From Branchiostoma floridae (Eukaryota > Chordata > Leptocardii > Amphioxiformes > Branchiostomatidae), in NCBI RefSeq assembly GCF_000003815.2, contig NC_049994.1, positions 8,095,065-8,159,064 on the forward strand: a stretch of 64,000 nucleotides of DNA. The letters are read 5' to 3'. The notes under the pieces were generated by a model. That model was given only the letters and a program-made list of their open reading frames with translations, was not told the DNA's origin and searched no databases. Positions 1 to 40,200 of this stretch are shown piece by piece. A program made the position numbers and the translations under genes. The first letter of the stretch is position 1, and each line of letters starts with the position of its first letter.

Positions 1-1620
1 AAAATAAGTCAAAGTTTTTTATAGTAAAAAGATTTTAAAAAATAAGTGGAAACCAAGTAAAAACATTTTTAAAATAAGTCGAAACCAAGTAAAAAGATTT
101 TTAAAAATAAGTCGAAATCAAGTAATAACATTTTTAAAAATAAATCGAATTTTTTTATAGTAAAAAGATTTTTAAAAATAAGTCGAAACCAAGTAAAAAC
201 ATTTTTAAAATAAATCGGAACCAAGTAAAAAGATTTTTAAAAATAAGTCGAAAGTTTTTTTTATGGTAAAAAGATTTTGAAAAATAAGTCAAAAGTTTTT
301 TATAGTAAAAAGATTTTAAAAAATAAGTGGAAACCAAGTAAAAACATTTTTTTAAATAAGTCGAAAGTTTTTTTTTTGTAAAAAGATTTTAAAAAATAAG
401 TCGAAAGTTTTTTTATAGTAAAAAGATTTTAAAAAATAAGTCGAAAGTTTTTTTATAGTAAAAAGATTTTTAAAAACAAGTCGAAACCAATTAAAAATAT
501 TTTAGAAAATTAGTCGAAACCAAGTAAAAAGATTTTAAAAGATAAGTCGAAAGTTTTTTTATAATAAAAAGATTTTAAAAAATAAGTCGAAAGTTAGTAA
601 AAAGATTTTAGAAAATAGGTCGAAACCAAGTAAAAAGATTTTCAAAAATAAGTCGAAACCAAGTAAAAAGATTTTAAAAAATATGTCAAAACCAATTAAA
701 AATATTCTAGAAAATTAGTCGAAACCAAGTAAAAAGATTTTAGAAAATAAGTCGAAAGTTTTTTTTATAGTGAAAAGATTTTAAAAAATAAGTCGAAACC
801 AAGTAAAAAGATTTTTAAAAATAAGTCGAAACCAAGTTAAAAGATTTTTTTTAAAAATAAGTCAAAACCAAGTAAAAATATTTTTAAAAATAAGTCGAAA
901 CCGAGTAAAAAGATTTTAAAAAAATAAGTCGAAACCAAGTAAAAATATTTTAGAAAATTAGTCGAAACCAAGTAAAAAGATTTTAAAAAATAAGTCGAAA
1001 GTTAGTAAAAATATTTTAGCAAATAAGTCGAAACCAAGTAAAAAGATTTTTAAAAATAAGTCAAAAGTTTTTATAGTAAAAAGATTTTTAAAAATAAGTC
1101 GAAACCAAGTAAAAACATTTTTAAAAATAAATCGAAACCAAGTAAAAACATTTTCAAAAATAACTCGAAACCAAGTAAAAACATTTTTAAAAATAAGTCG
1201 AATTTTTTTTATAGTAAAAAGATTTTAGAAAATAAGTCGAAAGTTAGTAAAAAGATTTTAGCAAATAATTCGAAACCAAGTAAAAAGATTTTTAAAAATA
1301 AGTCAAAAGTTTTTATAGTAAAAAGATTTTTAAAAATAAGTCGAAACCAAGTAAAAACATTTTTAAAAATAAGTCGAAACCAAGTAAAAACATTTTTAAA
1401 AATAAATCGAAACCAAGTAAAAACATTTTTAAAAATAAGTCGAAACCAAGTAAAAACATTTTTAAAAATAAGTCGAATTTTTTTTATAGTAAAAAGATTT
1501 TAGAAATTAGTCGAAAACCAAGTAAAAACATTTTTAAAATAAGTCGAATTTTTTATAGTAAAATGATTTAGAAAATAAGTCGAAACCAAGTAAAAAGATT
1601 TTTAAAAATAAGTCGAAAAC
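1..1620. repeat. AT-rich 33-bp minisatellite array
   Basis: About 50 degenerate copies of a roughly 33-bp unit of the form AAGTAAAAAGATTTTTAAAA followed by ATAAGTCGAAACC run from the window edge to about 1620. There are two main unit variants: one with CCAAGTAAAAA and one with GTTTTTTTATAGTAAAAA. A second polymorphism swaps GATTTTT for CATTTTT. The array is cut by the window edge, so its full length is unknown. The small minus-strand reading frames inside it are repeat artefacts. Confidence 0.95.
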
Positions 1621-5980: not shown

Positions 5981-6332
5981 AACAAAGATCAGATTAGAGA
6001 AACGTGTTGGATTTTTCAAAATTGGTCTGAAATTTTCAAAGAGATACTAAGATTGTCTTTTCTTGGGCAGCCTGAAAACAATGCAATCTTCCAAGCTTTT
6101 AAGAATGTAGTTTTGGGCCCAACTTTGTATCACTATAAGTGCCGTTCTGGTAATTTTTTGGCTTGACAATTTTACAATGTACATGTTTAGAATTTTGGTA
6201 AAAAGTAACATGCAACAGAAAGCATGCTTCGTTATCATATCCAGTTATTATATACGTCCATAGTACACATAGATGTTACGAATTCTATTTCTGTATTGAT
6301 GTTTTAATTTTACCTGGTGTTACAGTGTCGTG

Positions 6333-9300
6333 ATGTCAGAAACTGCCCTGCCCCCCGAGACAGACAGTCAGTCAGAAGATACACAGATGCAAACCTCTCT
6401 CCTGGAGGAGATCCAAAAGCTACTACTTGTCCAGCAGGAAGAGATAAACAGGAAGTTTGAGGAGAAGCTGGACCAGACAAAGGAGGAGTTGGGGAAGAAA
6501 ATGGAAGAGACCTCAATGCTAATGGAACGCACAGAAGAAATCAAGGACATACTGTATGATGTTTCCGATCATCTGAACGACATCAAGGAGGCTTTGAGAG
6601 GACAGTCAGAGAGGGAGGCCAAGGTCAGAGAGTTGGAAAGGAAAGTGACGAATCTCCGAGACAAAGATATGGACGTGATCAAACTCGTGGAGGAAATAAA
6701 GAAAATAAAACGTATGTGTAAGCATCTGCCATCCTTAAAGTTGCAGTCGGAAAAATGCTGTCTTTTGCAAGGTTACACATGTGAAAGAAATTGTCACTTG
6801 TTGAGGATTTAAGTATAATCTCAACCTGGACAATCAGATCAATAACTGAATGCTAGTGGTAGTACGGATAGCTGTTTAAACAATGTTATAAAGAATCTGT
6901 TACATGTATATTTTTCTTAGAATGCCTCTCTGAATACCTTTAACACAAGCATCCGAGTGAAGTCCACTTGGACCCCGGGCGTAAATTTTACAGTGCCATT
7001 TGAACATTTTTGATCTGAAGAAAAATTAAGTCCGTGACTCAGTCAATATCTGCTAACTTTTTTACGAAATTGGTACTATACTGTGGAAATTATAAAGGAA
7101 AGTCTGTGTTCAGTCCGTGTAGGGTCCAAGTGGACCCCGGCAAAATGTGCGTAAGACCACTAAACTTTCAGAGGATAACAAACATAAAACTTAATCCCCA
7201 CAACAGCTTTTGTGTCGTCATCATAATTATAATATGACGACATTATGACGCTATTTAGCTAATAAGGGCAGGCACCTTCAATTTTGACCAATGATGTCAT
7301 GAAATTAGCGTAAATTAGAAATTTGGAATCATAAAAGTTACATTGAATTTTATAGGATTTCATTGATGTAAGAAAACACTGGTACATAACCAAGAAAACC
7401 TTATCGGAATTAGAATGTTTTTACAGTAGACATTGTCAGTGAAATTCAATCTAATATTTAATGAAGGTAATGAGCTTGTAATCTCTGGGTATTGTTTCAG
7501 GAGATGCGGGTGCCTTAAAAGATTCGTTTCAAGAAGATCCGCCTGCGGCTCTCATGGAACTGCTAGTAAATATGAACCAAAACCTCGATGCCATATTGTC
7601 GACACTGAAACGTGATCCTCGCGGTAAGTACCAGTATACCATACAGTGTTGGTACAGGGTTTCTGCATCTAACATTGGATGCAGAAAACTCTAGGTGCGC
7701 ATATATATATATATGTCATATCTTTACTGCAACCAGGTATTTTATTGAAAGGCTGTAATTCAATTGCAAGCTACTAATGCTATGAAAAGATGTGATGGAG
7801 TTGGATACTGTTATGTTCATTGGTCTTCTTGTAGAGATTTGGGCTGAAACAAGAATTGATTTTACATTTCAATTATCAGAATCAGAATATTTTCGGATAA
7901 AGGTGTCGACGAAATTCCTGAAAATGGTGCGAATACCTATATGTCCAGTGATGTGTCAATTTCCTAATTTGTCCGGAAATCTACCCCTTTCGCGCAGTGG
8001 TAGTCCATTTTTGACCTGGTCCATTTAACTGGGGTGCCGCCAGAATAATCCATTCTCGACGGGGGTGACTTTTCAAAAATAAACTTTGTAATGTCCATTT
8101 CGCCTATAGAGGGAGATGCAGTGAGATATGTTGTATTTTCTCGGGAGCAAATGAAGGCCTTTCTAATCTCTTGTTTAATCCCCTAAAGTTGTGGAACTTC
8201 TAGCATTCATCTTAAAGGTTTAAATTTTACAGGGCGTATGAACATGTTGCCCCAGGCCTGACTGTCTCACTAATACCCCAGGTACATAAAACATTGCCAT
8301 GCATGATATGTATTTTTTGCCTATCTATCTTACTAACACACCCGGTATATTACAACAAGCCATGCTGCGTGGCATGCATAATTTTTGCCTATAAGTAGAA
8401 TTTAGACCATCTATTCAACTCTATTTGCCTGCAGAACCTGCTCAAAAGCAATATTCAATCTCTTTTGCAGAGGAAGCTAGGCTATCAGATGCTATCAACG
8501 TGATAAAAAGAAGGCTGAAGGCCATTGAGTTGCCACGTTTCGCAGAAATATTGGGGTTTTCAGACCGCGAATTTAGCAATATTACTGCCCGACGTCCGAC
8601 TGTCCACCAGCAGAAAGATTTACTTTTCCGACAGTGGCGTGAAAAGAATGGCAACAAAGCCACAGTCGAAGCTCTACAAGATGCATTACACAGACTGACA
8701 GATACGTCAGCAATCTCTAGATCCCGCGCAGGTAATCCATACCAGGGTGTTTCGATCTAGATATAGATTTTAAAAGGAATTTATATATAACGATATATAG
8801 GTATGTTTGATTTATGGAACTCGCTACTTCGACCCTTAAGAGCAGTATTGTTATCCATCTTCACTTTCAAAGTCATGTACACAACAGAATACCACATGAG
8901 CTGAAACGTCATTATGTCTTTTTCTTTCTGTTCACATTGGTATGCAAATTTCCATTTCTTATTTCATTTTGATTATGCTTTCGAGTTGTATTAGGGTTAT
9001 CGTTGAATAATTGATTTGCTTTATTTTGTCTTTTGTAAGTTAACTTGCGTTACTACTCGTACGTCCTTGTGATATTACCATTTATCTTATATATTATTTA
9101 TTGTTGTTATTTTATTGTTTATCGATTACTGTTATGTTGCATGTACATATATGTACGAGGTTTTTACTCAGGCATCTTTAAAAGAAGCCAGCCAGGTGAC
9201 ATATACCCCTGGATAAATAAAAACAAGCAGACAAGCCAACACCAATATGATTAACAGAGGTTTTTGTTATCAGGTGGAGGGTGACTATATAATTCAGTCA

Positions 9301-14441: not shown

Positions 14442-17400
14442 ATGGATCCAGTACACAAGAAAATATTGAGGAGACACCGGATGGCCATTGTCCAGGATTT
14501 GAATGTAAATTATGTCAAAGATAGCCTTATTGGAAGTGAAATCTTCAGTACTGAAATGTGGAAAGACATTGAGGCAGCAGGGAAGGGGACAAGGCTTGAC
14601 AAAGCTTCCGCTCTTATGGACGAACTACCGCGCCGTGGGCCTGGTGCTTTTGCGGCTTTCTGTGATGCACTGAAGGAAGTGTACGAGCACCTTTCGAAAC
14701 TGCTCACTGAAGACGGTGAGTCGGCTTTATAAAATAGAGATGTATTACGCACAATGTATACTTTTGTGCCACGTTAAAATGATGTACTTTTTTACATTTT
14801 ATGGGTACTAACAATACTGTATGAAATGTTCTATTGTGCCTACCTCCAATGAAATAGAAGCTAATTTTTAATGTTGCACATAGTGAAGTGATTTGATGAA
14901 GGTTAAGCATTCAGGTAAATGTAACTTGCTCATATAGACATAAACAAAACTGATTAATAAGCTTAGTTTAATCAACGGATTGTCGGTCGACGATAAGAAA
15001 GAGTAAAGTAAAACTAAAAAGGAATGTATACATTGATGAAGATAAGACAAATAGGAAAGGATGTTACAAACGATATGCTATTGATATCTTCACAGAGATT
15101 GACCCACTGTTTTCTTGAGGAAATGAAGGAAGGAAGAAATAGCGTTTGAAATTCAACAAATTAAGAATTAGTTAAAATGATGATCATTCTTGATTTCCGT
15201 TACAGCTGAAAAGGCATCGGATGAACGTCCTGCAAGTGTAAGTGATAATGTTTTTGCTTTTTTACCTGATGTAACATTCAACTTCAAATTGATAATGAAA
15301 TCAGATAAGTGACATTATAATGACATCAAATGCAGTTATCATGACACCAAAGTTATCATGATTATAGTGACTATTGAATATACAAAAAGATGATAAATAC
15401 TTTTGTTATCTACAACAAGGTGGCCCGCATACCCCGGTCCCAGGATGACCATATGGTTTAAAGGTTTAAAGATTATTGTTCCTTTTTCAGTCTCACACAG
15501 CAAAAATGTCTAGCGAGATCAGCATCATCAGGGAAAAGTACATAAACATTCTGAAGAGGAGAAGATTACCGATAATAAATGCTCTGAAGAAAGTAGTGCG
15601 ATCAAAAAGGCACCGAGACAAGAGGACACCAAATATGCTAACATCATTGACAGACATTAAAGAAGCCCTTAAAGAAGCTTATACATTCAATGGATCCGAG
15701 AGATCGGTTTTGACTGATATTCTCGACGTGGTTGAAAAATTGAAAAGCATCAGGGATGAGCTGCAGAAATATGGCCCCGAACAGGTCTCAATATTGAATT
15801 CCATGTTGTCAGACGGAGCTGACTTCTCCACTCTCTATGACGATATCAAAGATGGTATAGGCTTCAACTACTGGAGAGATCTTAGCATGCAAGGGATGGA
15901 TCGTGAAGATGTATTGAAGTTTGGTTCAGCTTGGGTTTTTGTCCCTTTTCTCTGTGACATTGCTGAAGAAGCACTTCGGGCGCAACGTATCTCGCATGCA
16001 GTGTATGGTTCTGCTTCCAGTAAAGGTAAGTTCATCTTGACTTCTTGGATATGTGAAGTGTGCATAATTTTACAGCCTCTGAATGGATTGCGATAATATT
16101 TGGTTTGTAGGAATGTGTTGGAAAGACGAAGGTCAAGGTTGGTAGTACTGCAAAAGAACTTCCGATTGTTATTTCTTTCGTCTGGACATGCCATGGCCTT
16201 TCTTTGCTGGTGGCAAGTACATTATTGTTCTAATAATATCAATGATGATAACTAAAGGAAAGACTGATTTCCCTATTATTCGGTATACAGGTAGTTACAA
16301 GATGCATGACATGAAAGGTTTTAATTAGAATTATTATTGAGCAGTTTCTTTAAACCCAGTGTTTCTCATAATGTGATTTACGGCAAGTGGAACATTACAA
16401 AATACTAATCATGCAAATGATTAATAAAAAACGTGCTTTATTCCTTTGTAGTAACTGGTGCGAATTAAATACTTGTTACTACGTTGATTAAGGTGTATGT
16501 CGCTATGTATAGATAACGTGTCCGTGCAAGATGTTTCCATAATTTGACATATACAATATATGTAACTTCGAAAGAAAAGACTATCTTTTAGAATAGATTA
16601 TATATGCTACGTACTGTCTTAATTGTGTTGGCTGTACTTGTTTGGTCGTAACAACAAATGTGATGTTTAGTTTCATAATTGGTAGCTTCATCCAATATTA
16701 GTATAATCTAGTATCCCATGTATGCAAATTTCACATGTATTAGTAATGAGTAGTACCACCGTCATCTTACTTGACTAACTTGACACTTCATTAATGGAGC
16801 CTTGTGTTACAGTTAGAAGACAAACCATCGGTCCTGAGGGAGGACATATTGTTGTAATTGGAGATGGTGTCCGCATATCGATGACCATACCACCTGGTAG
16901 CCTTCAAACGGTGGAGCATATCAGCATAGGATTGCAAAACTCATCACCCAACGTTACAAGGATACAAAAATCTACGCAAGATAAGGCTTCGCCATTTTCC
17001 CACGAAATTAATTTCAAACCATCGAATATTCAGTTCCATCATCCGGTGGACGTTAAGGTTTCTTTCGACGACGTTCCTAAAGATGATACTTTTCTCCTGT
17101 TTTGGGAAGAAGTATCTACTGTCCTTAACACGACTTGGCAGGACCTTTCAAAGTTGTGTTCACTGGAACAGTCTTCCTCAGAAGTGTTCTTCCAGTTGGA
17201 ACACTTAGGCAAGTACATTCTCGTTGCTTTAGCAACCTCCATGTTCCAGAATTCGGTCAGCAAAGTGGTACTTGAAAGCTTGAATGGCAAATCATTTCTA
17301 TGCAGTTTCACTCCCTACCTTGGGGTGGTATCCGGGGGTAGACATCCTCTGACAATCATCTGTAAAGAAGGATGTAATGTCTCTTCTTCAACACCGAGAA

Positions 17401-17747
17401 TATACCGACGATTTGGACCAGTTAGGACCTCCGAGTTCAAGCTTTCTGACGAAGAAAAGCTTACAGTCGAAATAAAGCCTGACACTTTGGTGGAGAAATG
17501 TTCCGAGTCCTATCAGATAAACAGAACCACTTGCGATACAAAGGAAGGGCAAGCAATGGATTTGCTAGTCAAACCAAGGAAACACCAAAGTCTCGAGGCT
17601 GGACAAGTGGTGATATCTGTGTGCAGAGAAAACGAAATGAAGAAGGTCTGTTTTATTCCGTTGGGAGAACAAAGTTTGACCGCCGCCTCTCCGGCTGATC
17701 AGCCTTTGTCGGCTTCTCGTAGTCTGCGCGAAGAGCAGAATGACTGA
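14442..17747 (+). CDS. CARD + novel helical domain + ZU5 + UPA-like protein (4 exons, 591 aa)
   Basis: The exons are 14442-14715, 15206-15237, 15491-16025 and 16813-17747. Phases are 1, 0 and 1, and the sum is 592 codons with TGA at 17745. Residues 1-90 look like a CARD (MDPVHKKILRRHR start, GTRLDKASALMDELPRRG, AFCDALKEVYEHLSKLL). Residues about 103-280 form a helical domain I do not recognise, conserved in the paralogue at 21847 (motifs STLYDDIKDGIG and CDIAEEAL). Residues about 282-420 are a ZU5 domain (IGPEGGHIVV, IPPGSL, ending FQLEHLGKYILVAL). The remainder resembles a UPA domain (SKVVLESLNGKSF, HPLTIICKEGC, GQVVISVCRE). ZU5-UPA modules occur in UNC5, ankyrin, PIDD1 and the FIIND of NLRP1/CARD8. 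At the ZU5 end HLG replaces the HFS-type autoproteolysis site, so self-cleavage is unlikely (inference). No C-terminal Death domain follows. It is probably a cytosolic signalling protein. Confidence 0.82.
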
Positions 17748-18129
17748 AAGTACTCGCAACAACGTTTCAATTTGCAGATCCATTTTATCACTGATTTTCT
17801 TCGTAACTTATAGCTGTCCTGTTTACGTTTAAGGGACTGATTGGTTTTTATATTTTGGTGCCTTGCGGTTAGCCATCAACTTCTATAACAGGTTTTCTGC
17901 ATGTGTTACCTGGTATCTATGGGTTCGGAAACACTTTTTGTACATCAAAGAATGTGTGTGCCTGAAATGGAAATCCCGGTGGTATGTTTTGCTATGGACA
18001 TGCTTTAATGCTAGCAAGGGAAGTGGGAAGCTGCCCTGTCGTAGGCAAGGCTACAAGGCGTTGTTTGTTAATTTAGTTGCTCAGCCAAATATGTGCTCTT
18101 ACTGTGCGAAAAATGTAAGACTGCCGATT

Positions 18130-18410
18130 TAGCTCTTTCTAAAACCATCATTGAGTTTAATTCGTTGCTATCACGTACAGTAGGAGCATTCTCACTAGAT
18201 AGCTTCAAACAACATTTGCAGTCAGATTACAGATGTGCAAAGGTTATGTGTGACAAGTCGTTCAGTGTAGTATAACCAGCTGCTTGATATATAACAAATT
18301 GGCATGTATGGGCATGTAGCCGATATAGGTGGCGCTTTTGCGCCGAGAATACAACCCCAAACGTGGCTAAGAAAAAGGTGTCTAAGAGACATCAAAACGT
18401 AAGCGTTTAG
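18130..18410 (+). mobile_element. CR1-like LINE tail
   Basis: The reading ..SLDSFKQHLQSDYRCAK.. ends at a TAA near 18273. It is followed by CGTTCAGTGTAGTATAACCAG, matching the 10313-10925 element. It then continues into a GGTGTCTAAGAGACATCAAAACG motif also seen in the foldback at 25225. Only the last part of the element survives. It lies about 400 bp after the ZU5 gene stop, and an AATAAA at 18491 could serve as a polyadenylation signal for that gene. Confidence 0.7.
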
Positions 18411-18639
18411 TTGTATAAATTTTGTCTTTTGGTATAGTGATACAAGCGATAGGTGTATAACTTCTAATGTTCTGTACTTTCTGATTCGTGAATAAAATGT
18501 GGGGAAAAATTGACATAAAAAAATCTTTAAAAATGAATCTTTGATATCCTTTATTCTACCAGCCTGGTAGAATTATTTTCATACATTTGTAAAATATGTT
18601 TTTGTATCTCTATCCATAGCTATGATATCAAGCGCACAA

Positions 18640-19690
18640 TCTCAAGCTTGCTTTAAGATAACGTTCATATACGTACGTTTAAAGTCCAAGCCGGGGACAC
18701 ATTGTGCCGAGGCTAGTCTGAAAGCAAAGTCTGGCTGAGCCAAGTCTATGTTCAAAATCTATGTAATGTATCAAACAGCCCCATAAAAGTTACTACCCTT
18801 ACAAAAAATTGTGATGTTGTTTTTGGTGTGTGTGTCTGTGTGTGTATTGAATTTTGCGGCCAGCATACCTCTGTAAGGACTGTAGTGATATTTGGTATGT
18901 GAATAATGGTTGGGAAACAATGGTCGGGGTCAATTTTTGCCACTCCCCCCCCCCCCCCGCTCCCCTGGTGTGTGCCCTTAGTACTGCAGCAGTGAAAGCT
19001 TGCGGATTTTGTATGTTCTGTGCAAGAAATATGCAATAGATAGCGCCATACACGTACGACTTAAGTTCAAGCCGGGTACACGTGATTTAGGTTTGAACAC
19101 ACATGAAGCCTGACCCTTCTACTTTGTGCCACGCCAATGCTCACAGTTCGCCTTGGTCTGTCCGAATTTAAACAGGTCCATAAATTTTATTTCCTATTGC
19201 ATTTATTAGCATTCGTTTTCTTCTCTCAAAAATCAGCCCATTACATATCGAAATACAAATAAGACAAATATGATTTAGGACTCTAGTGGTACCTACGATA
19301 ACAGGACCTTTTGTCAAAAAAAGGAAAATTTACTCTGGGCCTCGTCCAATATGAGCTGGTAAAGAAGAAAGGGAAAGGAGGTGAACAATTTATCCGTTGG
19401 CAACCTTCCTTGCAATAACTGACATAACATGGTTGTCATTTACTATAAAATTGCACTGGCCATGCACCACTCCTAGGTCATGAGATTTGTGACGACCTTC
19501 CACCTAGACAAAGACATGGAGAATTATAGAACAACAACTTCTAAAGTTCGTTCGCAATGTTCAAATTTTAACCTCCGTATTTGTTCAAAGACGCAAAGTT
19601 GAAGTCGGGGACACGTGATAACACGTGGATTCTGAACCTCAGTCTGAATGCCGGTCTGAGCCAGATCAAATGTGCAAGAGTCAAGTGGGT
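18640..19690. repeat. Three copies of a short dispersed motif
   Basis: Around 18655, 19048 and 19585 the sequence reads close to ACGTACGTTTAAAGTCCAAG then CCGGGGACACGTG. Two copies continue into GTCTGAANGC and GGNCTGAGCCA. Between copies 1 and 2 are a GTGTGTGT tract (18820-18845) and a poly-C run (18946-18958). No gene is seen. Confidence 0.5.
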
Positions 19691-19699
19691 GCGCGTGAA

Positions 19700-21640
19700 C
19701 GTGCGTACGTTGACTATTAGGTCGGGGGTAACAGACATTTATGCAATCGGCATAATATATATTGTTGCAACTGATGCGGCGGAAACCATAAAAAACGTTA
19801 CAGAGTATGTTACTTACATACAGTCACTTGTTGCTGATGATATCTAAAACACGTAACAAAATGTGTTTTATATCGACTCGAATGTGAACGCTTTCGTTCA
19901 CATGAAAATATACCCAACTAATCGAAGTAATGTTTCCCATTGGAGTATCTAAAAAGCTGTCTTCACCTCCTGTACATATTTATCCATAGGGAGTGTATAC
20001 TGAAACCTGCTCTTCCCCATCAGTGTCACTGACGAAAGATAGTAGATTCTATCTAAAACCCCTGGCCGTTTTCAATTCAAATCTAGTTGCTTGAGTAACT
20101 GTTTTAAATTTTTGGCGTATAACCTGGATTTCGACATTAACAAATAGATCGTTTGACTAACGGGTTCTATGTATTGAACTAAAAAATTCTATCATTAATC
20201 GTTGTCAAGTTGATTTTTGTCACAATGTAAAAGACACCCTAGAAAGAGCTGATATTATATTACGGGGCCTGTTGCCATTCTGACCACTTTAAACGTACCC
20301 TATAGCTAAAGGTATTTCTCAGAAGGAAACAAAAGCCTAACTCAATTTAGATCCTAATTTGATCATGCTTAACTCAATTGAGTGAGTAACTCAAATAAAC
20401 GCGTTAAAAGTTGCACGATTGTTGAAAACAAAGGTTTTCCTTGGGTCACATTAATTTGATTATACGGATGACATACTCGGTCGCTAGAAAATTGATGCGA
20501 GTGTGGGAAATAAATGGCGAAAGAATTATGTTGTCTTTATTTTGCGCTCTTATTTTTCAATCGGTCGGTAACATTTTATGCATAGTATACAGGTCGTCTT
20601 GAGTGACGTTGTCACCCTGAATGTACATTTGGAAAAGGAACTTGAAAACAATCCGTCTGAAGAAATAAAAAAAAACTCTTTCCTACCTGACTCTTACTAT
20701 GAGACAGTTTAGGTAAAATTCAGTGGAATACAGACTAGCTAGAATTCAGTGGAATAAGTAGTATTTGAATTTGATGGCACATTGATACTGAGGCTTTTTT
20801 GAGTATCAGTGTTCGTGACACATCAACTGAATATCTAGTAATCCCGTAGTATCTGTGTCTAAATATATAACTTACAAATATTGATTTTTACCATTCAACG
20901 CCTATAATGGCTCGTACAAACAAGTGAGGAGGCACATCGGGTTGCTATTTACTAAATGATAAACTGGCTTTCTTCAGCCGTCACTGGGTCATGACCTCAA
21001 GGTAAGTAAACAAGTCCTTTGCATTCTTCTTTTCTTTACACACTGGCAACTGAAGAATTCTTTACCCCCCTCAGCCTTTGCTACCGCAGGCTCTTATGAC
21101 TGATAAAATCTGGTAAACGTGATCAACTTTGTTTCCAGCCAACTGCTCTGTAAATGTTTCCATCTATACTGTAAGTCGCAACGTTAAAACTTGTTTCTTG
21201 GACGTAACTGATCGGAATGCAAACTTTATCAAAATATGCCAAAAATAACGAAAAAACGTGATGACATTTATCAGAATCTTGTTTGTAAATACCATACGAA
21301 AACTCCAGGGCCTGTACCTTTGGACCCTGTGTAAATAAATTTTCTAAACATTTTCCATTTAACTGCCTCAAAAGAACGCCACTACTTCAAATTCATAATA
21401 CTATGCACATACTATTAATATTCATCTCCGAGTTCAAGAGTACTTGTTTGTCACCAGTGGCTGCTAACTGTACCTCCAGACCGATTCTAGGCCAATAGAA
21501 AGGTCAGGTGATGAAATAGGACTACGTTCCCACGCCAGGTATAATAAATACCATGTCCACATGCCTGAACGTACACCCTAACGCACTGTAATGGAATGCA
21601 TCTGAACTGTCTGAAGCAAATGAAAACATTTTTGATAAAG
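19700..21640. other. Intergenic, no feature supported
   Basis: The sequence is AT-rich. A small hairpin TGTGAACGCTTTCGTTCACA lies at about 19885, and a short AATTCAGTGGAATA duplication near 20720-20755. I find no exon with coding signal. The last 100 bp (from 21640) match the 5' flank of the decayed CARD relic at 12560, so they are probably proximal promoter or 5' UTR of the next gene. Confidence 0.4.
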
Positions 21641-21846
21641 TGTAACTCAAAAATCGTTGAAGTGGCTCAATCAAACGTTAGACACCTTTTTACTGCTAAA
21701 GTCGAAGACGTCACAAAATAGCAGGTGTTTGTCACTATGGTTGTAGATTGGACCTCCTGACCTTTGCTAAGTCAACAGTGCAAGTGCAAATAACAGTAGG
21801 ACCGCGTCCCTACACCAGGATTACCCGTTACTCTGAAGCTCTGAAG

Positions 21847-24800
21847 ATGGATCCAGCGCACAGAGATATTCTCCGCAGACATTGGAGGGTTATTGTTAGT
21901 AATCTGAACGTAGATCGTTTCAAAGACATGTTGAATGTGACGTCACCTGGGCATTGTGAAGATATCTCAACGGCAGAGAGGGGGACAAGGCTTGAAAAGG
22001 CTTCTAGGCTCATGGACTCCCGTGGTCCAAATGCTTTTTGGCATTTCTGTGAGACACTGATGACTGAAGGGTATGACTTCCTCGGGAAACTACTCATAGA
22101 TGATGGTGAGTAAAATGACGTAAACTGTGGAAACATGCTTACAGTAGTATGAATTGTAGCTTGCTGCTGTGTACACATAGTTACAATTAGGAAGAAAGTT
22201 CGGCTTCCTTTTGATGATTTGTTTGGTCTTGGGCGACTTGTCTGTAGCAAGGCATTAGCCTTCAAGTGTTTGATTACATTTGTGTATGTACTCGTATCTT
22301 AACGCTGCCGCTAAAGCCGTCTACTTGGCCGAGACTAGTCCAAATTGTTTCTTTACCAGCGTCTTTTACATACGAGGGGTGATCAATAAGTTCTCGGCCT
22401 AACCCAGACACATTAAGCACAACTCAAATTTTAAGGCACAACTTCATAGTATGAAGCCTTTTATCAAAAGCCCCCAAATTACAAATCATTGGAGTCATTA
22501 CTTTCCCGGCATTCGTTTTTTTCTAGAATAGAAGTTAAGTGGCGAGAAAAAGAAGGGTGAAGTGTGATCAGACAATTTGACCCACACACCTTAGGTTGCA
22601 GATCAATTGTCCACTTTTCTTCGTTATCCCTTACCTAACTTTACTGAGTGTCGCCTACAAGGTAATGATCACAATAATTTGAATTTTGGTACACATTTAT
22701 ATAAGACTTTATACGTGTACGTGGGATTATGAATAAGTCCTCGGTTTTACCGAGAAATAATAAGCACAGCTCAGATTTCGAAGCCTAGATGTCAAGTATA
22801 AAGTCTTATATAAATATGTACCAAAATTCAAATTATTGTGATCATTACTTTGCAGGCGACACCCAGTAACGTTAGGTAAGGGATAACGAAAAAAAGTGGA
22901 CGATTGACCTGACCTGACTGTGCGGGTCAACTTGCGCTGCTGGAAGTCAGACACCCAATTCCTTTTGCTTGAAATAGGAAGAGAATCATTATCAAACATT
23001 TTGACAATGTCTTTTCTTAATTTACGGCATGGGGAACTAGACCCACACATGTCTGATCACAATTCACACCACTTTTTTCTCGCCACTTACCTTCTGATTT
23101 GCAAAAAACGAATGCCTGTAAAGTAATGACTGCAATGATTTGAAATTTGGTGGGTATTGATAAAAGGCTTCATACTATGATGTTGTGCCTGAAAATTTGA
23201 GTTGTGCTTATTATTTCTGGGTGAGGCCGAGAACTTATTGATCACCCCTCGAATGTTAATTCATGGAACGAGCACCAGGTCTGCTTACGTACAGGGGTCA
23301 CAAAAATAAAGTGCCGAAATTACCCTACTTAAGTCAAATACTCAATTCAGCTCTTTTTCCGCTCAATATGGGTCCCCATTTTCAAAACCTATGAAGAATT
23401 GCTACTTACATGTAAGCCTTCTTTGCAAAGATAAGACTTTCATAATCTGAACAACGTGTGTTATTTAGGTAGAGAAGAGGATCAATTGAGACCATATATG
23501 CAAATGAGGGCATTATTTGCATAATCAATATGGACATTCATAATGCATTACTCTAAAGGTTAATATCATTTGGTTTGTAAATCATCATTTCTATTTATTT
23601 TCTACATAAAAGACGATCACTGACGTTTTGATTTGACCTCTGATCTCTCACGTTCACTTTACCAGTTACCTTAGTTAATTTTGTTACTTTTCTGTTTAGC
23701 AATTGTATAGTTTTGTTGGTTATGTTCGTTTTTATTATATATATATTTCGGATTCCAGGAAGAATAGCGATACTATTTCAGTGGTATCGCTAATGGGGAT
23801 CGTAATGAAATAAACAAACAAACAAAATTTGGTGAAGGTATGAAGTCGTGAAAATCTGGTTAAAACTAACTATAATCGCATGTACAAATTTTCATGTATA
23901 AGGCCGTACGCTAATCCTTTTTTTTCGTTACAGCTCGACAAATCCTTGCTGACCGAACGGTGAGTATAAATATATTTTCACCTTCTTCATCGTTAAGCAA
24001 GGACTTACAGAAAGTATTCATTTCCCATGAATAATTAGTTGATCTATGAAAATAATATGAAGAATTTTATTTACATTGTAGTGCTCTAAGACACATACTG
24101 TGTATAAATCAAGATGCATACCCGAGCCTTTAGAGCCATGGGCAATAGAAAAAATATAATCAGAATACGACTTCATGATGGCGTCATATTACGCGTTAAC
24201 GGCATCATAATAACGGTAGCGATTTATTCTTATGTGTACACCATCCTGTACAAATTTGGTAGTCATGTGCGGGGCTACGGATTGGAGGGGTCAATGCAAA
24301 ACAACTGCCCCAAACCAGGAATTAAAATACTCGGTCTACATAGGTTTACATGGTTGCTAAAGGTTTACTCAAAACAGTGAGACACTTGTCAGACACAGAC
24401 ACTGTTTGAGCTTAAGTACATTTTATGTAGTAGTTAAGTATATAATGATTTCTTTCAGGTCAACATCAGAGAGGACTATCGAAAGATGATGAAGCATAGA
24501 AACTTTGCACTGTTAAGAGCATTAAACAAAGTAGCACTGTCCACAAAGCGTGGTGGAAGAAAGGCATCAGAACAGAAAATAACAAAATTGAAATACATCA
24601 AAGAAGCAAGAGAAAGAATTTCCTTTAAAAGAGAAAGTTCACCAGAGCTTGACATATTTGCTGAGTCCGAATCGTTGGCTTTAGACGAAACCCTCGACTT
24701 AGTTAAGAAATTGAAGCACATCAAAGACGAGTTAGATAGAGATGGGTCTTTTCCTGAATATGTGAGTAGACTGAATTCCGTTTTGGCTGAAGGTGCCGAC

Positions 24801-27366
24801 ATTTCCACACTCTATGACGATGTGAAAGATGGAATAGGCTCGCATTACTTAAAGTCTTTTTCCCTACAATCTCTGGATCCCTCAGACCTAAAACAATTTG
24901 GCTCTGTTTTGGTCCTCATTCCATTTGCCTGTGATATTTCTGAGGAAGCAGTAAAAAGGGCAAGTAAAGGTACGTGCGCTATCATTTTAAAGCAATAGTC
25001 AACAGACTTTTAAGACATTTGATATAACAGTTACTGTGGTGATGCTATTGTACATAGTACATTGTACATACATTAATTAAATTTCTTGTTGTATGCATAT
25101 ATAGCACTATGTACAAAGAAATAGATTTTAAAAAAAATCAGCAGGACTTGAAATAACATACTTATGTTGGTTCTATTAGGATTTACCTCACGCCGTCAGT
25201 CATTTATCATTGTCAGACAGATTTTTCAAAGGACATAAGGATTTTCTTTTACACAACCAGTTTATCTCACCTGCTGATGTTTCGATGTCTGTCATGCATC
25301 TTCCTCAGAGCTTCTAACTGGAGTTCTGCTTCTCGCTGCTATATGTAGCCGATGTAGGTGGCAATTAGTTAGAAGCTCTGAGGAAGGTGTCTTTAGACAT
25401 CGAAACGTCAGAGGGTGAGAAAAACTGGTTGTGTAAAAGAAAATCCTTATGTCCTATGATCTACCAACCTGATGAAATTATTTTCGGAAGAGATTTTTCA
25501 AGATGATTTTAAAATATATCTTTACAGTACCAAGAACACCAACACCAGATGACGAGGAACATGAAAGGTTAGTAAATATTTGAATACTCTATACACAAGA
25601 AGCCAAACGGGTAACGGAAAGTACTTGCAGGTTATGTCTGAAAGTTAATTAAAGATTTAAAACCAGATATTTTAGATCCTAATTTCCTGTGCCAGTATTT
25701 TGCATTGTTTGGCAAATGTCGTAATCACAAAAAAATAATGTAACATGTATACCCAATACTTCGCGAAGTTTCTGTCATTATGATAACATTTGCACCACTT
25801 TTCAAATGGTGCTTGAAGGGTGTTTATATGCGGGTATTATAGACTCATATCTGTTTTGAATTAGTTGGACCGATGCAGGGATCATACTAGTGTAACGACG
25901 AACGTTAGGTGGCAAATGTTGTTTCTTCTGAAGGGTATTGGGGATCAAGGAAACATGAAGTCCTGTCATATTTCTTTCTACAGACCGTACGATGGTGGTG
26001 AGAACGCACAAGAAGTGCATCTAATCACATCAAAAGTGGACATCTTAGCTGAGGAAATGAGAAAGCTACATGGCAATGTCGATAAGAAGTTCGACCAGAT
26101 GGGTAGACAGATCCAACATGTAGCAGGAAAGGTCGACGACTTGGATACAAAAGTAAATGACATCCAGGCCAGTCTACAGGCTGATTCAAGACAGCATTGT
26201 GAGCAACATTTGAAAACATGCACACGAATGCTTAATTACCTCCATGAAATGTCATGGAGTGGAGGTTATATTTTCTGTTATGTGTCTCTGTCTGTGTAGA
26301 TGATTACTCAAGAACGGCTGGATGGATTGGTTTCATACTTGTTGTGTTGGTGGGCTGTGATGAAAGCTCGAATCGATGTGATTTTGGGCGCCGTATCTGT
26401 CGTTATAATCGATGTAATAATATCAGAAATCCCCCCTATATCTGCGATATATTGGAACAGGCATCGTGCTTTAAGTGTTTGTTAATGGGCTTAGCTCCAA
26501 GCAGATAGTGAGGTGATTTGTATGACAGTTTTTTGGGAACCCCAAGTTTTTTTGAATATGATGATTAGTTTTATTTATGTCTGCTTAGGATATCATGGAG
26601 ATGTGAAGCGTAAGTATAATTGTAAGAAGTTGAGGTACATTTAACGGTAATGCTTAACAGGTATGGATGTCTCACATACTGTACTGCTGATTTGAGTGAC
26701 ATGGTGATTAAAATGCCATTAGGTCCTCTCACCTTAGATGGGTTGGGTGTCAGAAGTTTTATGGGCGATATAGATGTTCTGATTTCGTTACGATAAGGGA
26801 CAGTTGTTAGTTGTCTCTTTCGTAGCCAATGGTACTTGTTTTTTAGCAGACGGGGTTGGCGCCAAGTATTCATCTTACAGTTGATGTAGGGCTATCAGAG
26901 GAAAGTGTGCATCTCATTTTTGTACCGTGTGAACAGCTGATGTTATGACATATTGGTGGAAAATCAAATCATCATCTGACTAAAGTTGGCCACATCCCTT
27001 CTTCTTTCTGAGTTTCCCAACTTCCTCCCACCACACCGCTCTGAGGCACATAGTCGAACCTCAATAAAGCTGACAATCTTAGACAGTTTAAATGCCAAAC
27101 ATCAAGCTTAAGGAACACCACGCTACCATATGCCGTCGACCTCTTAAACGCACATTACACAATTAAGTGTCACATTTTAATAATTACTAATCAGATGGAC
27201 ATCCTCTGTGTCATTAAATAAATACACCGCTACTTTCCCATAACATTTATAACCATTACTCTCAAATACAACCGACTATAAACATACATACCATACACAA
27301 AAAAGCAATAAATATTTCATGGAGGTATGAGGTCCCCGAACTCTAGTTTTTTTATTCATTTGCTAA

Positions 27367-27402
<36 letters not shown>

Positions 27403-28594
27403 ATAGTTCTGTTTCTTTTCTGATCAAAATGTTTCTTTTTTCTTCCACAGTGAGTCGGCCACCAAAGGCAGGAGCAGAACGCAATCCAGGTTATAACTAA
27501 TTACATATATAACTACTATATAATTACTGCGATCCTTAAGCTCATTTTGCTGATGTCATAGGGATGAATTCTCCGTCCGGAGAAAAAAACATACTTTTCT
27601 TTTGTTTGTCTTGGTTTCCAGCATCCAGTCCAGCATTGTCAATAAAAGATCGTCATATCAGTGAGTTGTTTTAAAAGTAGCGATGTGACCTGAGACTTGA
27701 GTTAGACTCACTTTCCTTCATCCGTTTGATAATGGCTTTCAAAAAGTATTATGTTTGCAACGATATGCCTTTTTTATTGCATTTGGTGACCATTGATTTG
27801 GTGATCATTGATTTGGTGACCATTGATTTTTTGGTGATCATTGCATTGACCATTGCTGAAGTGGTGCCGATGTGAGAAGAGAAACGCTAAAACTGTAATT
27901 CTATCCACTTTTTAGAGCTTTTTAGGTAAACTTTATTCCTATATGGCAAAGTATCCAAAATTTAGAATTACGGGCTATTGCTTTTTAGGGTTATTGTCTC
28001 TAAGTTATAATTGTTTTTTTTTTGTAACAGAAGGGCTGTAAGTGACGTGATTCTCTATTTGTATATCACCAGTCACATATCTAGGTTGTAGATATAGTAA
28101 ACATTTCCATTTACTTCATTCTCTTTTGATATAAAGTTAGACAAAGTGCATCTTTGCTTTATCCAATTGAAAATTAATAATGAATTGTTCAATGCCATAT
28201 CAGGTATCAGGACATTTTTATTACAAATTTCTGAAATTGTTACACCAAGTTCTAAAAATTTAACGTTATGTTTCCTTACTATTTCCTTCACAGTAAGGCG
28301 ACCTTTCCAGGTTAGCTATTTGGTTAAATAGATCAAGTATATAGAAATGAAAAGTTGATATTTTACGCTATAATTGTATTTTGTGACAATGTCACCCTGA
28401 ACGACCCCTTCCTTGAATTGAATTGGATGGTGTTTGGTTATTCCACTCACCGTAGGCTCGTTCTCCTCTGACACCATTGTCACTATTCTTGTACTCATGT
28501 TTATATATATACTATTGAAAGTCGCGAAGGTTACCATTATCGAACTTCACCTTCATGGACCCTACCAAATATCATCCATCCAAGGCTCTTTGAT

Positions 28595-28632
<38 letters not shown>

Positions 28633-29187
28633 TAATGAACTCTATTTCGATTGGAAATACGCTTGAATTTTGTGGCGATCATAAATATAAACATTTGCCC
28701 GCGAAATCAAATGAGTTTGCCTTAAAATGAGCTGGTCTATTTATCAAACCTAAAATAGCTATTTATGCACAATGAACAATCCTCGCCTTTGTTTGGTAGT
28801 GACGGCTCGTGATTTAGACGGGACATCTAACACTGCCCTCTTCTATATTTAGATTACTAGCATATCTGAAACATCATATCTTTTATTGCTCTCTTGCATC
28901 TTGGTAGTTCTTCGTTGACTAATTAATTTCCTCCATTCTCAAAATATCTGCCTACAGAGCGTGATATTGTTCACGGCGTAATTTATCTGTCTACCTCTTT
29001 CTTTTTAGGTTCTACCTCGGCCTCATTTCCCCCAATAGGACGCGGACAAGGCCAGCCGTTGGTAAAGGATTCCCAAGGTTGGAAGCATTTTACTGTCACT
29101 GACTTTTTTCTATCGCTCCAGGAGACACACATATCTCTTCTGACAGAATTGCAAGAGCATTACTCTATATCATTTGTAATCACATAA
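21847..29187 (+). CDS. CARD + novel helical domain + coiled-coil protein (8-9 exons)
   Basis: Supported exons are 21847-22105, 23934-23959, 24459-24969, 25528-25567, 25984-26198, 27451-27489, 27622-27660 and a terminal exon 29009-29187 (TAA at 29185), giving 435 aa. An optional exon 28294-28310 would shift the frame to a TAG near 29036 and give 391 aa. The first three exons have the same order and phases as the gene at 14442. They encode a CARD (MDPAHRDILRRHW, GTRLEKASRLMDSRG) and the same unrecognised helical domain (STLYDDVKDGIG, CDISEEAV). After this there is no ZU5. Instead there is a coiled coil of about 60 residues (VDILAEEMRKLHGNVDKKFD, VAGKVDDLDTKVNDIQASL) and a Pro/Ser/Gly-rich tail. 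There is no in-frame ATG upstream of 21847. CARD plus coiled coil fits an oligomerising adaptor (inference). The first five exons are well supported; the small 3' exons are less certain. Confidence 0.75.
22373..23251. mobile_element. Long-TIR mariner-like foldback, nested
   Basis: The ends CGAGGGGTGATCAATAAGTT (22373) and its reverse complement (ending 23251) extend into inverted arms of about 215 bp. Inside them is a second inverted pair, 22609-22714 versus 22796-22901. The ~80-bp centre (ATAAGTCCTCGG, ATAATAAGCACAGCTCA) again resembles the terminal repeat. The left flank is TA; the right flank reads AA. The tip resembles mariner ends (compare 57402). It lies in intron 1 of the CARD/coiled-coil gene. 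It has no transposase, so it is a non-autonomous element. Confidence 0.9.
25225..25470. repeat. Foldback repeat with LINE-tail motif
   Basis: An arm starting GGACATAAGGATTTTCTTTT and containing ACACAACCAGTTT is repeated in reverse complement at the right end (AAACTGGTTGTGTAAAAGAA). The middle carries TAGCCGATGTAGGTGGC, as in the CR1-like tail at 18310. It is intronic in the CARD/coiled-coil gene. Confidence 0.8.
26234..26345. repeat. ACCTCC..GGAGG repeat family, copy 3
   Basis: TTACCTCCATGAAATGTCATGG runs into TCAAGAACGGCTGGATGGATTG. A matching TTTCATGGAGGTATGAGG lies at about 27318, so the copy may extend over 26234-27340 as a ~1.1-kb intronic insertion. Confidence 0.5.
27363..27400. repeat. 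(TA)n microsatellite
   Basis: A run of about 15 TA units sits 50 bp before the exon acceptor at 27450. Confidence 0.95.
27780..27862. repeat. Short tandem repeat TTTGGTGAYCATTGA
   Basis: Four to five copies of a 15-18-bp unit (TTTGGTGACCATTGA / TTTGGTGATCATTGA) lie head to tail in an intron of the CARD/coiled-coil gene. Confidence 0.85.
28525..28630. repeat. Truncated copy of the 4.8-5.9 kb repeat plus (CA)n
   Basis: ACCATTATCGAACTTCACCTT, ACCAAATATCATCCATCCAAGG and a (CA)15-like tract match the layout at 4950-5075, including its CA-repeat tail. The family therefore carries its own microsatellite. Confidence 0.7.
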
Positions 29188-37220: not shown

Positions 37221-40200
37221 TCATTTTTGGCAAAGGTAGTGGCACTCTTCCGGGACCTCCGGAACATCCATGACCCCCAGGAGTCTCAACCCAGACTCCT
37301 GGAGCATGGTGCAAACCGACTGCTTCCCCCATATGGTCCCCAACCCCTTCCCCTTAAAGTGCATAGACACCGGCACACAGTGAAGAAGGCTAGTGGAATA
37401 CATGACCGGACCAAACGGGTTACCAACATTTTCTGAAATCTTAGAATTCCCCTTGATCTCGACCAATGAGAAGAGACCACCTGGCTTGAGGATACGGCGG
37501 ACCTCTTGGAGAGCCTCTTCCGGGAATGCCACGTCATGGATGGCGTCGAAGGCTGTGACGTATTCAAACTTGTTTGACCAATCAGCGGGCAGCTTGGCGG
37601 CATCGTGTGCAGCGAAGAAGGTGTTGGAGAGGTCTTCGGCTGCTGCCTCTTTGGTGGCGGCTGCCATGGCCTTGGGGTCGAGGTCAATGCCGTAAAACGT
37701 GCTGTTGGGGAACCTTGAAGCCATGATCAAGGAAGGCGCCCCCCTCCCACACCCAAGGTCGATGACATGAATTCCGGATTCTGTGTAAACAAGGAAAATC
37801 AATATTTGAGTGTTGATTGTACAAACAGTACACATATCCTCACTCACACATATCCTCACTCACACTTGTGCAAGTCTTACTCTCAAAACAATTATAAATT
37901 GAAACTAGATATCTAAGCGTAAGCAATGTTTCGCTGCAACTATCATGTTAGGTGAAGATGGAAAATTACAAGATTTAGTATTTATGAGTTTCCTTCGCAA
38001 TTTTCGGCAACGGCTTTATTATTATTTTCTTAGGGGGGCGTCGAAAGATTTGCAACATGGGCTGAGGTTTTCTATACAGGGAAAGTTTTTTTTACCGCCG
38101 TAAAACTCCATTTCTAGACATAACGCCGCCCCGTCCCCCCAGCAAAAAATAATAAACGCCGCTGCTCCGCAAGTCGGCGAAGAAGGCTAATCAGTATCGA
38201 TATTGTTGCTTTTGTTCATTTTTCGGCCATCTTAGTGTACTCATTATCTAGCCTGGTATCCAAATGATGAGTGTACTCGGGAGCTATATACGGCTGGATA
38301 CCGGGCTACTCATTATGGGACATTGAGATATAGAATTTCGTACCACTGAAATCAGCATGCTCTGACCAAGCCGAAACATTGACATTAACACTATTACAAA
38401 GATTTGCATAGATTTACATAAAATGTGCATAACGTACCCAGCTTCTCCTTGAGCCCTGGGATGGTGGGGATGAAGTGGTCCACTAGGGTGTCCTCGTGAT
38501 GTGACCTGCGCACTAGGTACATCACGTCCTGCAACGTGGAGTACGTCGAGTACGGGACTCCTGCAACATTACACATGAATTCTGATAAATGTCAAATCAT
38601 CATTATCAGTATCATCGTTATCATAATTGTTATATTTACCATCACCATCACATATCATAATCACTTTGGTATTATCACCATCATTATCATTACTATCGTT
38701 ATCATCGCCATCTTAATTATTACCGTCATCATCATTATCGTTATCATTATCACTACCTTTAAAATCGCTATCATTATCATCACCATCGATATCATCTTCA
38801 TTCTTCTCATCCTTATCATCATCAACACCATTATTATATATCATCATCATTGTAATCATGACATTACCAAAATACATGTCGAACAAAGCGTACTGTGCTT
38901 ATCATAGCCAATGGTTTATACCTGCATTTATTGAAAGACACCGTTTAAAGCTAGTATTTGAGTTAGGCTCGTGTATTTGAAATAGATCTAGTATGGAAAA
39001 TAGGTTTAAAGCTAGCTCAAGCGTTCTTTTGAGTTTTGTAACGCAAACTTTAACTTGATAATACAGAGGCCGTTTCAAAACCTTAGAATCATTTACACGG
39101 AGCGAAACGTTCTTACGGTCGGTCACCCGAAAGACAAAAGTCTGCTAAAGTTTAGAAGGATGTAAACTATGTGTTAACTACTCCGTCTGGAGTTATCCTG
39201 TGCTATTTTAAGGATGGATCGTGATGGAAACGTTTTGTTGCGGTCTTTCATAGACTGTCGAGAACGGTTCGCCAGATAGTCTGTTTTGGGAAGCCAGTCT
39301 GGCCTTGGTGAGGTTATCTTAGAATGGAGTTTCCAGACACCCATTTCTTCGCTTCTCTCCAAGGCCAAGCAAAAGAGAGAAAAACACATGGCATTAGGGA
39401 GTGCTGAATTTTTACTGTCAAACGCTAGTTGCTCGGTATGGCATTGAAAAATACTGACGTGTCATTAGTCGAATTGATGTTGGATTGTTGCTATATGGAT
39501 GAGCGTAATATCTCTGTGCAAAAATTGAGCTAAGTCGACCTTTGGTGCTACCATTGTTTGACCCTTACAGACAATTGATCATAAATACTTTAATGCTGCT
39601 AAAGCTAAGAGCACAACCCGCCGTACGTGCAACTTGTCCGTACGTTTTTTGGGGTGACATAAGCCCGCCACTTATTTCTAAAAATAGCAGGGAGGGAGTG
39701 CGTCAACACGGCAACACAAAGTTTTGCCTGCATTTGAAGTTCTACGGCGTGTCTGCGTGCTGCCAAATCCGTCGGATTCCGTACGAGTTCGAACGGAGGC
39801 GGTACTTACCACTTACGGATCCCCCCCCCCCCCCCACAAAAAAAAAAATTGCCAACGGATTTGCACGCAGACAGCACGCAGTTGCACGTACGGCGGGTTG
39901 TGCCCTTAACTTAAAAGTCATGCGATCATGAATAATTAAATGCTGTTGTTAAAGATACGTACCAGTAGGACCGTCCTTCGCGAAGCACTTGACCACCTCG
40001 CCTGTGGCCTGAGCGAAGCAGTCGGCCAGCTGACAGAAGGGAGTGACTGACCGCCTGAACTGGGACAGCAGGACGGGGATGCGGTGTCTCGGCAGGAAGA
40101 ACGTCTCCTTCTCCATGTCCACCACGTCAATCACTCCAGACGTTGCCATGGCACCCACCCACTCGCGAACGTACCTGTGTACGGTTTATACATATATAGA

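Follow-up and report, generated by a model that had tools for sequence, protein, structure and literature searches.

CARDs and Death domains act as modules of homotypic assembly, and ZU5 domains and coiled coils brace or oligomerise. CRADD/RAIDD is the CARD–Death adaptor of the PIDDosome, and human PIDD1 has the architecture ZU5–UPA–Death. SPACA9 (PF15120) is a microtubule inner protein found in cilia and sperm (PMC9564825). It binds tubulin in the microtubule lumen, its copies pack side by side on microtubules in arcs and spirals, and its fold is called unique among human proteins (Gui et al. 2022, PMC9564825). The subject of this report is a helical domain encoded by two neighbouring CARD genes, at 14442 (gene C) and 21847 (gene D), in a 64,000-nucleotide stretch of Branchiostoma floridae contig NC_049994.1 (8,095,065 to 8,159,064; hereafter the window, on contig C16 in our numbering). 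The domain seems to be SPACA9 in remodelled form, incorporated as a copy into the members of a small signalling-adaptor family.

Fold and Sequence Relationship to SPACA9

We are highly confident that the domain has the SPACA9 fold and is homologous to SPACA9. The structure model, of modest to low confidence, consists of helices only and matches SPACA9 over the whole domain. Its four long helices and additional short cap helices give the arrangement typical of SPACA9, a bundle of four helices into which two helical caps are inserted. A sequence profile made from six copies of the domain had been searched against the PDB before the model was obtained; SPACA9 chains took ranks 1, 2, 4, 5 and 8 of 13 rows (E 0.021–0.31), each covering almost all of the profile. 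Azurin stood at rank 3 of that listing and was judged a chance match.

In profile alignment by hhalign against three SPACA9 chains, the probability was only 30%, but the score of 29.1 exceeded all 400 column shuffles (best 23.7), a control that preserves composition but not helical periodicity. Against the intermediate paralogue described in the next section, the score was 41.4 with a probability of 85% (best shuffle 20.6), and against the SPACA9 chains and that paralogue together it was 46.8 with a probability of 92% (best shuffle 23.0). The Pfam SPACA9 model matches one of the six copies, which is not a window copy, at E 0.043, short of the 25-bit cut-off, and gives no match in the other five. 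Because the Pfam score falls below the curated cut-off, the domain is filed here as a SPACA9 relative by fold and not as a member of the SPACA9 family. Searched on the genome, the Pfam model finds the intermediate paralogue and two ordinary multi-exon SPACA9 genes on contig C8, and none of the family copies.

The earlier note, made from the window's sequence, had recognised no named domain here and had proposed an undescribed signalling module. The first statement is overturned by just what that note had named as decisive against it, a confident match to a known domain, here the SPACA9 fold together with the sequence link through the intermediate paralogue. The second survives in part: the domain is conserved, mostly helical, under selection and present beyond this locus; its origin now has a name, and what is new is the setting.

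Other identities were considered. TRADD-N, described in PMC8195603 as an RRM-like alpha+beta sandwich, was ruled out for the middle domain by secondary structure, given the all-helical model of modest confidence. Pfam DED appears in one of the six copies at E 0.068, below cut-off, and no death-fold chain was recognised among the 50 structure matches listed. Bcl-2, TIPE and HeLo folds were likewise not recognised among those matches, with no fold-by-fold test made. Matches to FAM186, DNA_pol_D_N, TRF, DED, azurin (E 0.0046) and Cas12a (PADLOC, E 0.003) were attributed to chance, since they were spread irregularly among the copies, covered only part of the domain or belonged to an all-beta fold. 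A domain search of viral contigs and plasmids gave no match, and the one match in prokaryote contigs, a pyruvate-dehydrogenase-type open reading frame identified by eye, was also judged to be chance.

An Intermediate SPACA9 Paralogue

The paralogue lies around C16:8041394-8042029, in a 365-residue open frame at C16:8041358-8042455, about 53 kb before the window and upstream of the CARD gene cluster. It stays open in one frame through the domain. That domain alone passes the Pfam SPACA9 cut-off (29.6 bits vs 25), and the family domain profile finds it at E 2.3e-5; a plain protein search with the paralogue matches only itself. It resembles the family in having the domain open in one frame and in matching both SPACA9 and the family, and it differs in a long tail that looks disordered. 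No CARD was found in about 14 kb before it or about 33 kb after it. The single-exon state of the paralogue and of the family would fit descent from a SPACA9 copy without introns.

The Domain Family in the Genome

The genome searched comprises 513 Mb in 431 contigs, and the match count is a lower bound. It holds at least seven matches to the domain, six intact copies and one broken. Four of the intact copies are clustered in tandem on C16, the first two ahead of the window and the other two within it; one each is on C6 and C15. The same seven were recovered when a distant family member was used for the search, plus two more at E about 1. The broken copy is one of the gene C domain, 6.5 Mb distant at C16:1617393-1617757 (-), 85% identical over 96 residues and with a frame break.

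Over 164 residues, the gene C and gene D domains share 46% identity (one comparison gives E 1e-42), and both exons begin in phase 0 and end in phase 1. Judged by eye, five of the six intact copies have an entry phase of 0 and five of the six an exit phase of 1. The ratio of nonsynonymous to synonymous substitution rates (dN/dS) is 0.22–0.48 in all 15 pairs of copies, 14 of which have a dS greater than 1; the domain is therefore selected coding sequence and not a chance frame. The earlier argument for function had been drawn from conservation in a single exon with the same phases. The sequence put forward then as the strongest motif, STLYDD[IV]KDGIG, is indeed common to the two window copies but is restricted to them; the motif that is stable across all six is [FY]G.[AV][LW]V[LF][IV]P.[LA]C. 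The six-copy alignment has 27 invariant columns, and K57, K85 and E159 are invariant.

A CARD is encoded 5' of five of the six intact copies (tblastn and small profiles, applied to stretches around the copies and the intermediate paralogue); none was found before the C6 copy in the roughly 16 kb examined, which includes a run of N of about 2.5 kb. On the 3' side, there is a Death domain in four of six, a ZU5 in two and a family-type coiled coil in three, with weaker coiled-coil matches 3' of two others. The neighbour profiles were built from the same exons and so confirm the set without testing it independently; Pfam at its own cut-offs confirms all four Death domains, four of the five CARDs and both ZU5 domains. 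A CARD, a Death domain or both adjoin every intact copy, and the expectation that the domain would always lie beside death-fold domains holds within this genome. If consecutive exons of the same strand make one gene, the architectures would be CARD–domain–coiled coil–Death, CARD–domain–ZU5 and domain–ZU5–ZU5-like–Death.

The last of these belongs to the C6 copy, whose second ZU5-like exon matches ankyrin-3 (E 2e-4) and nothing in Pfam. That exon ends in NHFSRY (C6:22793690-22793707), aligned to the matching ankyrin-3 site; gene C is without HFS. We take NHFSRY to resemble the PIDD-type autocleavage motif. A second, weaker Death-type frame (C6:22795317-22795637) stands before the main Death exon of this copy (E 3e-10).

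Among open-licence papers, none was found with STLYDD, with SPACA9 and "death domain", or with SPACA9 and amphioxus, and broader literature listings including SPACA9 held no SPACA9 occurrence among the best 20 of 16,583 and the best 10 of 5,382. As far as these searches of open-licence papers show, a SPACA9-fold domain in CARD/ZU5/Death adaptors is a new architecture.

Proposed Function and Alternatives

The explanation that we favour, and consider likely as a whole, is that a divergent SPACA9-fold bundle from a SPACA9-like gene became fixed behind a CARD, giving rise to a small family of death-fold adaptors in which it is the docking part. In such an adaptor, the CARD, and the Death domain where present, would nucleate assemblies of partners, and the ZU5 or coiled coil would oligomerise or restrain. 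The SPACA9-fold domain would set where, and onto what, the adaptor assembles. It might do so by its cap surface, with the tubulin-contact face of SPACA9 reshaped into a basic one. A docking role is proposed because the relative, SPACA9, docks onto tubulin by its cap; argued from that analogy, the role taken by itself is tentative.

At the site of the first cap insertion of SPACA9, all six copies have a basic stretch with a net charge of +3 to +7, where the three SPACA9 chains have -1 to 0 and the intermediate paralogue +1. This stretch bears on a somewhat unlikely alternative, that the fold is a mere structural spacer or a homotypic oligomeriser, placed between the CARD and whatever module is C-terminal, and binds no specific partner from outside. 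Such a role would suit the invariant columns, 24 of 27 being uncharged and mostly hydrophobic or small, and the arcs and spirals described in PMC9564825 would make side-by-side packing an old property of the fold. A mere spacer, however, needs neither a basic cap loop in every copy nor the invariant K57, K85 and E159.

Contact residues bear on a second alternative, decidedly unlikely, that the domain retains binding to microtubules, centrioles or axonemes and that CARD platforms are tethered to these structures or sense damage in them. Gui et al. 2022 (PMC9564825) list Q20, Q21, T61, R64 and N123 of SPACA9 as contacts to tubulin, and Q20, Y117 and H37 as contacts to SAXO; we took this numbering to be the printed chain index minus one, with which the named letters match. 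Q20, H37, R64 and N123 are lost in all six copies and Q21 is kept in one only, whereas T61 is altered in all six but only to Ser, and Y117 is kept in five. Identity at the contacts is 0–2 of 7 per copy and 6 of 42 cells in total, vs 15–20% elsewhere, with the alignment near Q20/Q21 being uncertain. From the sequence, there is no sign of the tubulin/SAXO interface of SPACA9 being preserved.

Both C8 SPACA9 genes keep T61, R64 and N123, a contrast with the family that counts against retained binding. Both also have Phe at Y117, so single contacts are not decisive, and at H37 the sole exon found has Phe. The fold itself is shared with a binder of the tubulin lumen, and a basic cap loop could suit acidic tubulin, but the microtubule lumen would leave little room for a large multidomain protein. 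Human PIDD1 offers a precedent, since ANKRD26 brings it to the distal appendages of centrioles, but it gets there by its UPA domain (PMC7878771) and not by a SPACA9-like one. A bolder form of the idea, to which we give only a small chance, is that the SPACA9-like gene captured behind a CARD spread as a new adaptor family through which caspase- or NF-kB-type signalling is tied to microtubules, to centrioles or to cilia; human PIDD1, which couples centrioles to caspase-2, would then be an independent parallel.

It is scarcely credible that the domain is a novel helical module whose match to SPACA9 is a helical-bundle coincidence: the structure model is of low confidence, and Pfam and NCBIfam give nothing above curated cut-offs (PADLOC, with no cut-off shown, gives only Cas12a), but the sequence link through the intermediate paralogue is separate from the model.

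In this genome a SPACA9 fold too diverged for Pfam recurs several times as a component of CARD/ZU5/Death adaptors. If this is right, a signalling module of seemingly unknown kind would gain a named origin, a cytoskeletal protein would have been recruited into cell-death-type signalling, and the assembly of such adaptors on microtubule structures would become directly testable.

Genes in the Window

Gene C is modelled as four GT–AG-bordered exons on the + strand, which join into a 591-residue open frame with no stop within. The first, 14442-14715, encodes the CARD (Pfam CARD E 3e-18; donor GT at 14716). The second, 15206-15237, is a 32-base linker (AEKASDERPAS) deduced from its AG/GT borders and frame. 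The third, 15491-16025, encodes the SPACA9-fold domain, residues 103-280 (copy M1), and the fourth, 16813-17747 with its stop at 17745-17747, a ZU5 and then a region that may be a UPA. The ZU5 is matched by Pfam at E 7e-5 (23.4 bits vs a cut-off of 21), and the region after it has no Pfam match to UPA. The CARD–domain–ZU5–UPA order read earlier in this gene stands for the CARD, the domain and the ZU5; its UPA label is not confirmed. At the ZU5 site where autocleaving relatives have (H/S)FS, placed by eye, gene C has EHLGKY, and on that replacement autocleavage of the product is not expected. No Death domain was found 3' of the ZU5.

Gene D (+) begins with a divergent CARD at 21847-22105, which shares 50% identity with that of gene C (E 7e-21) and has a Pfam match of E 0.014, below cut-off. 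Its SPACA9-fold exon (copy M2) is at 24459-24969. A coiled-coil exon with tentative borders, 25984-26240, is an open frame with coiled-coil-type Pfam matches and a weak match to the family coiled-coil profile (E 0.004); by eye, it is out of phase with the domain exon. A scan for a 32-base exon resembling 15206-15237 gave two poor candidates, and the gene model did not close. The gene drawn in the earlier note thus keeps its CARD, its domain exon and a coiled-coil exon nearby; its end at 29187 is not confirmed, and the exon joins are tentative.

Two further + strand exons, a coiled coil at 6330-6740 (tblastn to paralogous coiled coils; profile) and a Death domain at 8395-8757 (Pfam Death E 9e-7; 46% identity with its counterpart in the neighbouring paralogue), are probably the 3' part of gene B, the second gene of the C16 cluster and the third family gene noted here. 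The CARD and SPACA9-fold exons of gene B lie 10-11 kb upstream of the window, so that its exons would be joined across about 16 kb.

Elsewhere in the window, an open frame at 37221-37859 (-) resembles, by eye, a class I methyltransferase (VIDLGCGRGAPSL...), and one at 1060-1503 (+) has apparent KSKPSKNIFKN repeats, seen by eye with no repeat finder.

Comparison with Known Systems

Among ZU5-type scaffolds (PIDD1, UNC5, ankyrin, CARD8/NLRP1), the likeness lies in the ZU5 of gene C and of the C6 copy, and in the second, ZU5-like exon of the latter with its HFS. Published descriptions cover cleavage at SF/S in CARD8 and NLRP1 (PMC3210808), recruitment of human PIDD1 to the centriole by ANKRD26 through the UPA domain (PMC7878771) and fusions of TRADD-N to death folds and ZU5/FIIND (PMC8195603). 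Gene C differs from these scaffolds in having EHLGKY, in carrying its ZU5 behind a SPACA9-fold domain and in the failure to find a Death domain beyond that ZU5. Like CRADD/RAIDD, two relatives on C16 and another on C15 have a CARD before and a Death domain after the middle domain. The family differs in adding the SPACA9-fold domain and a coiled coil between them, and its Death domain matches CRADD chains only at E 0.43.

SPACA9 itself stands alone and is encoded in several exons, whereas the family domain is embedded in CARD proteins and encoded in one; the family is also below the Pfam cut-off, with the tubulin/SAXO contacts mostly replaced and the cap loop basic. What the two have in common is the fold across the whole domain, as modelled, a co-linear sequence and a last-helix motif resembling YGGVVSLIP.
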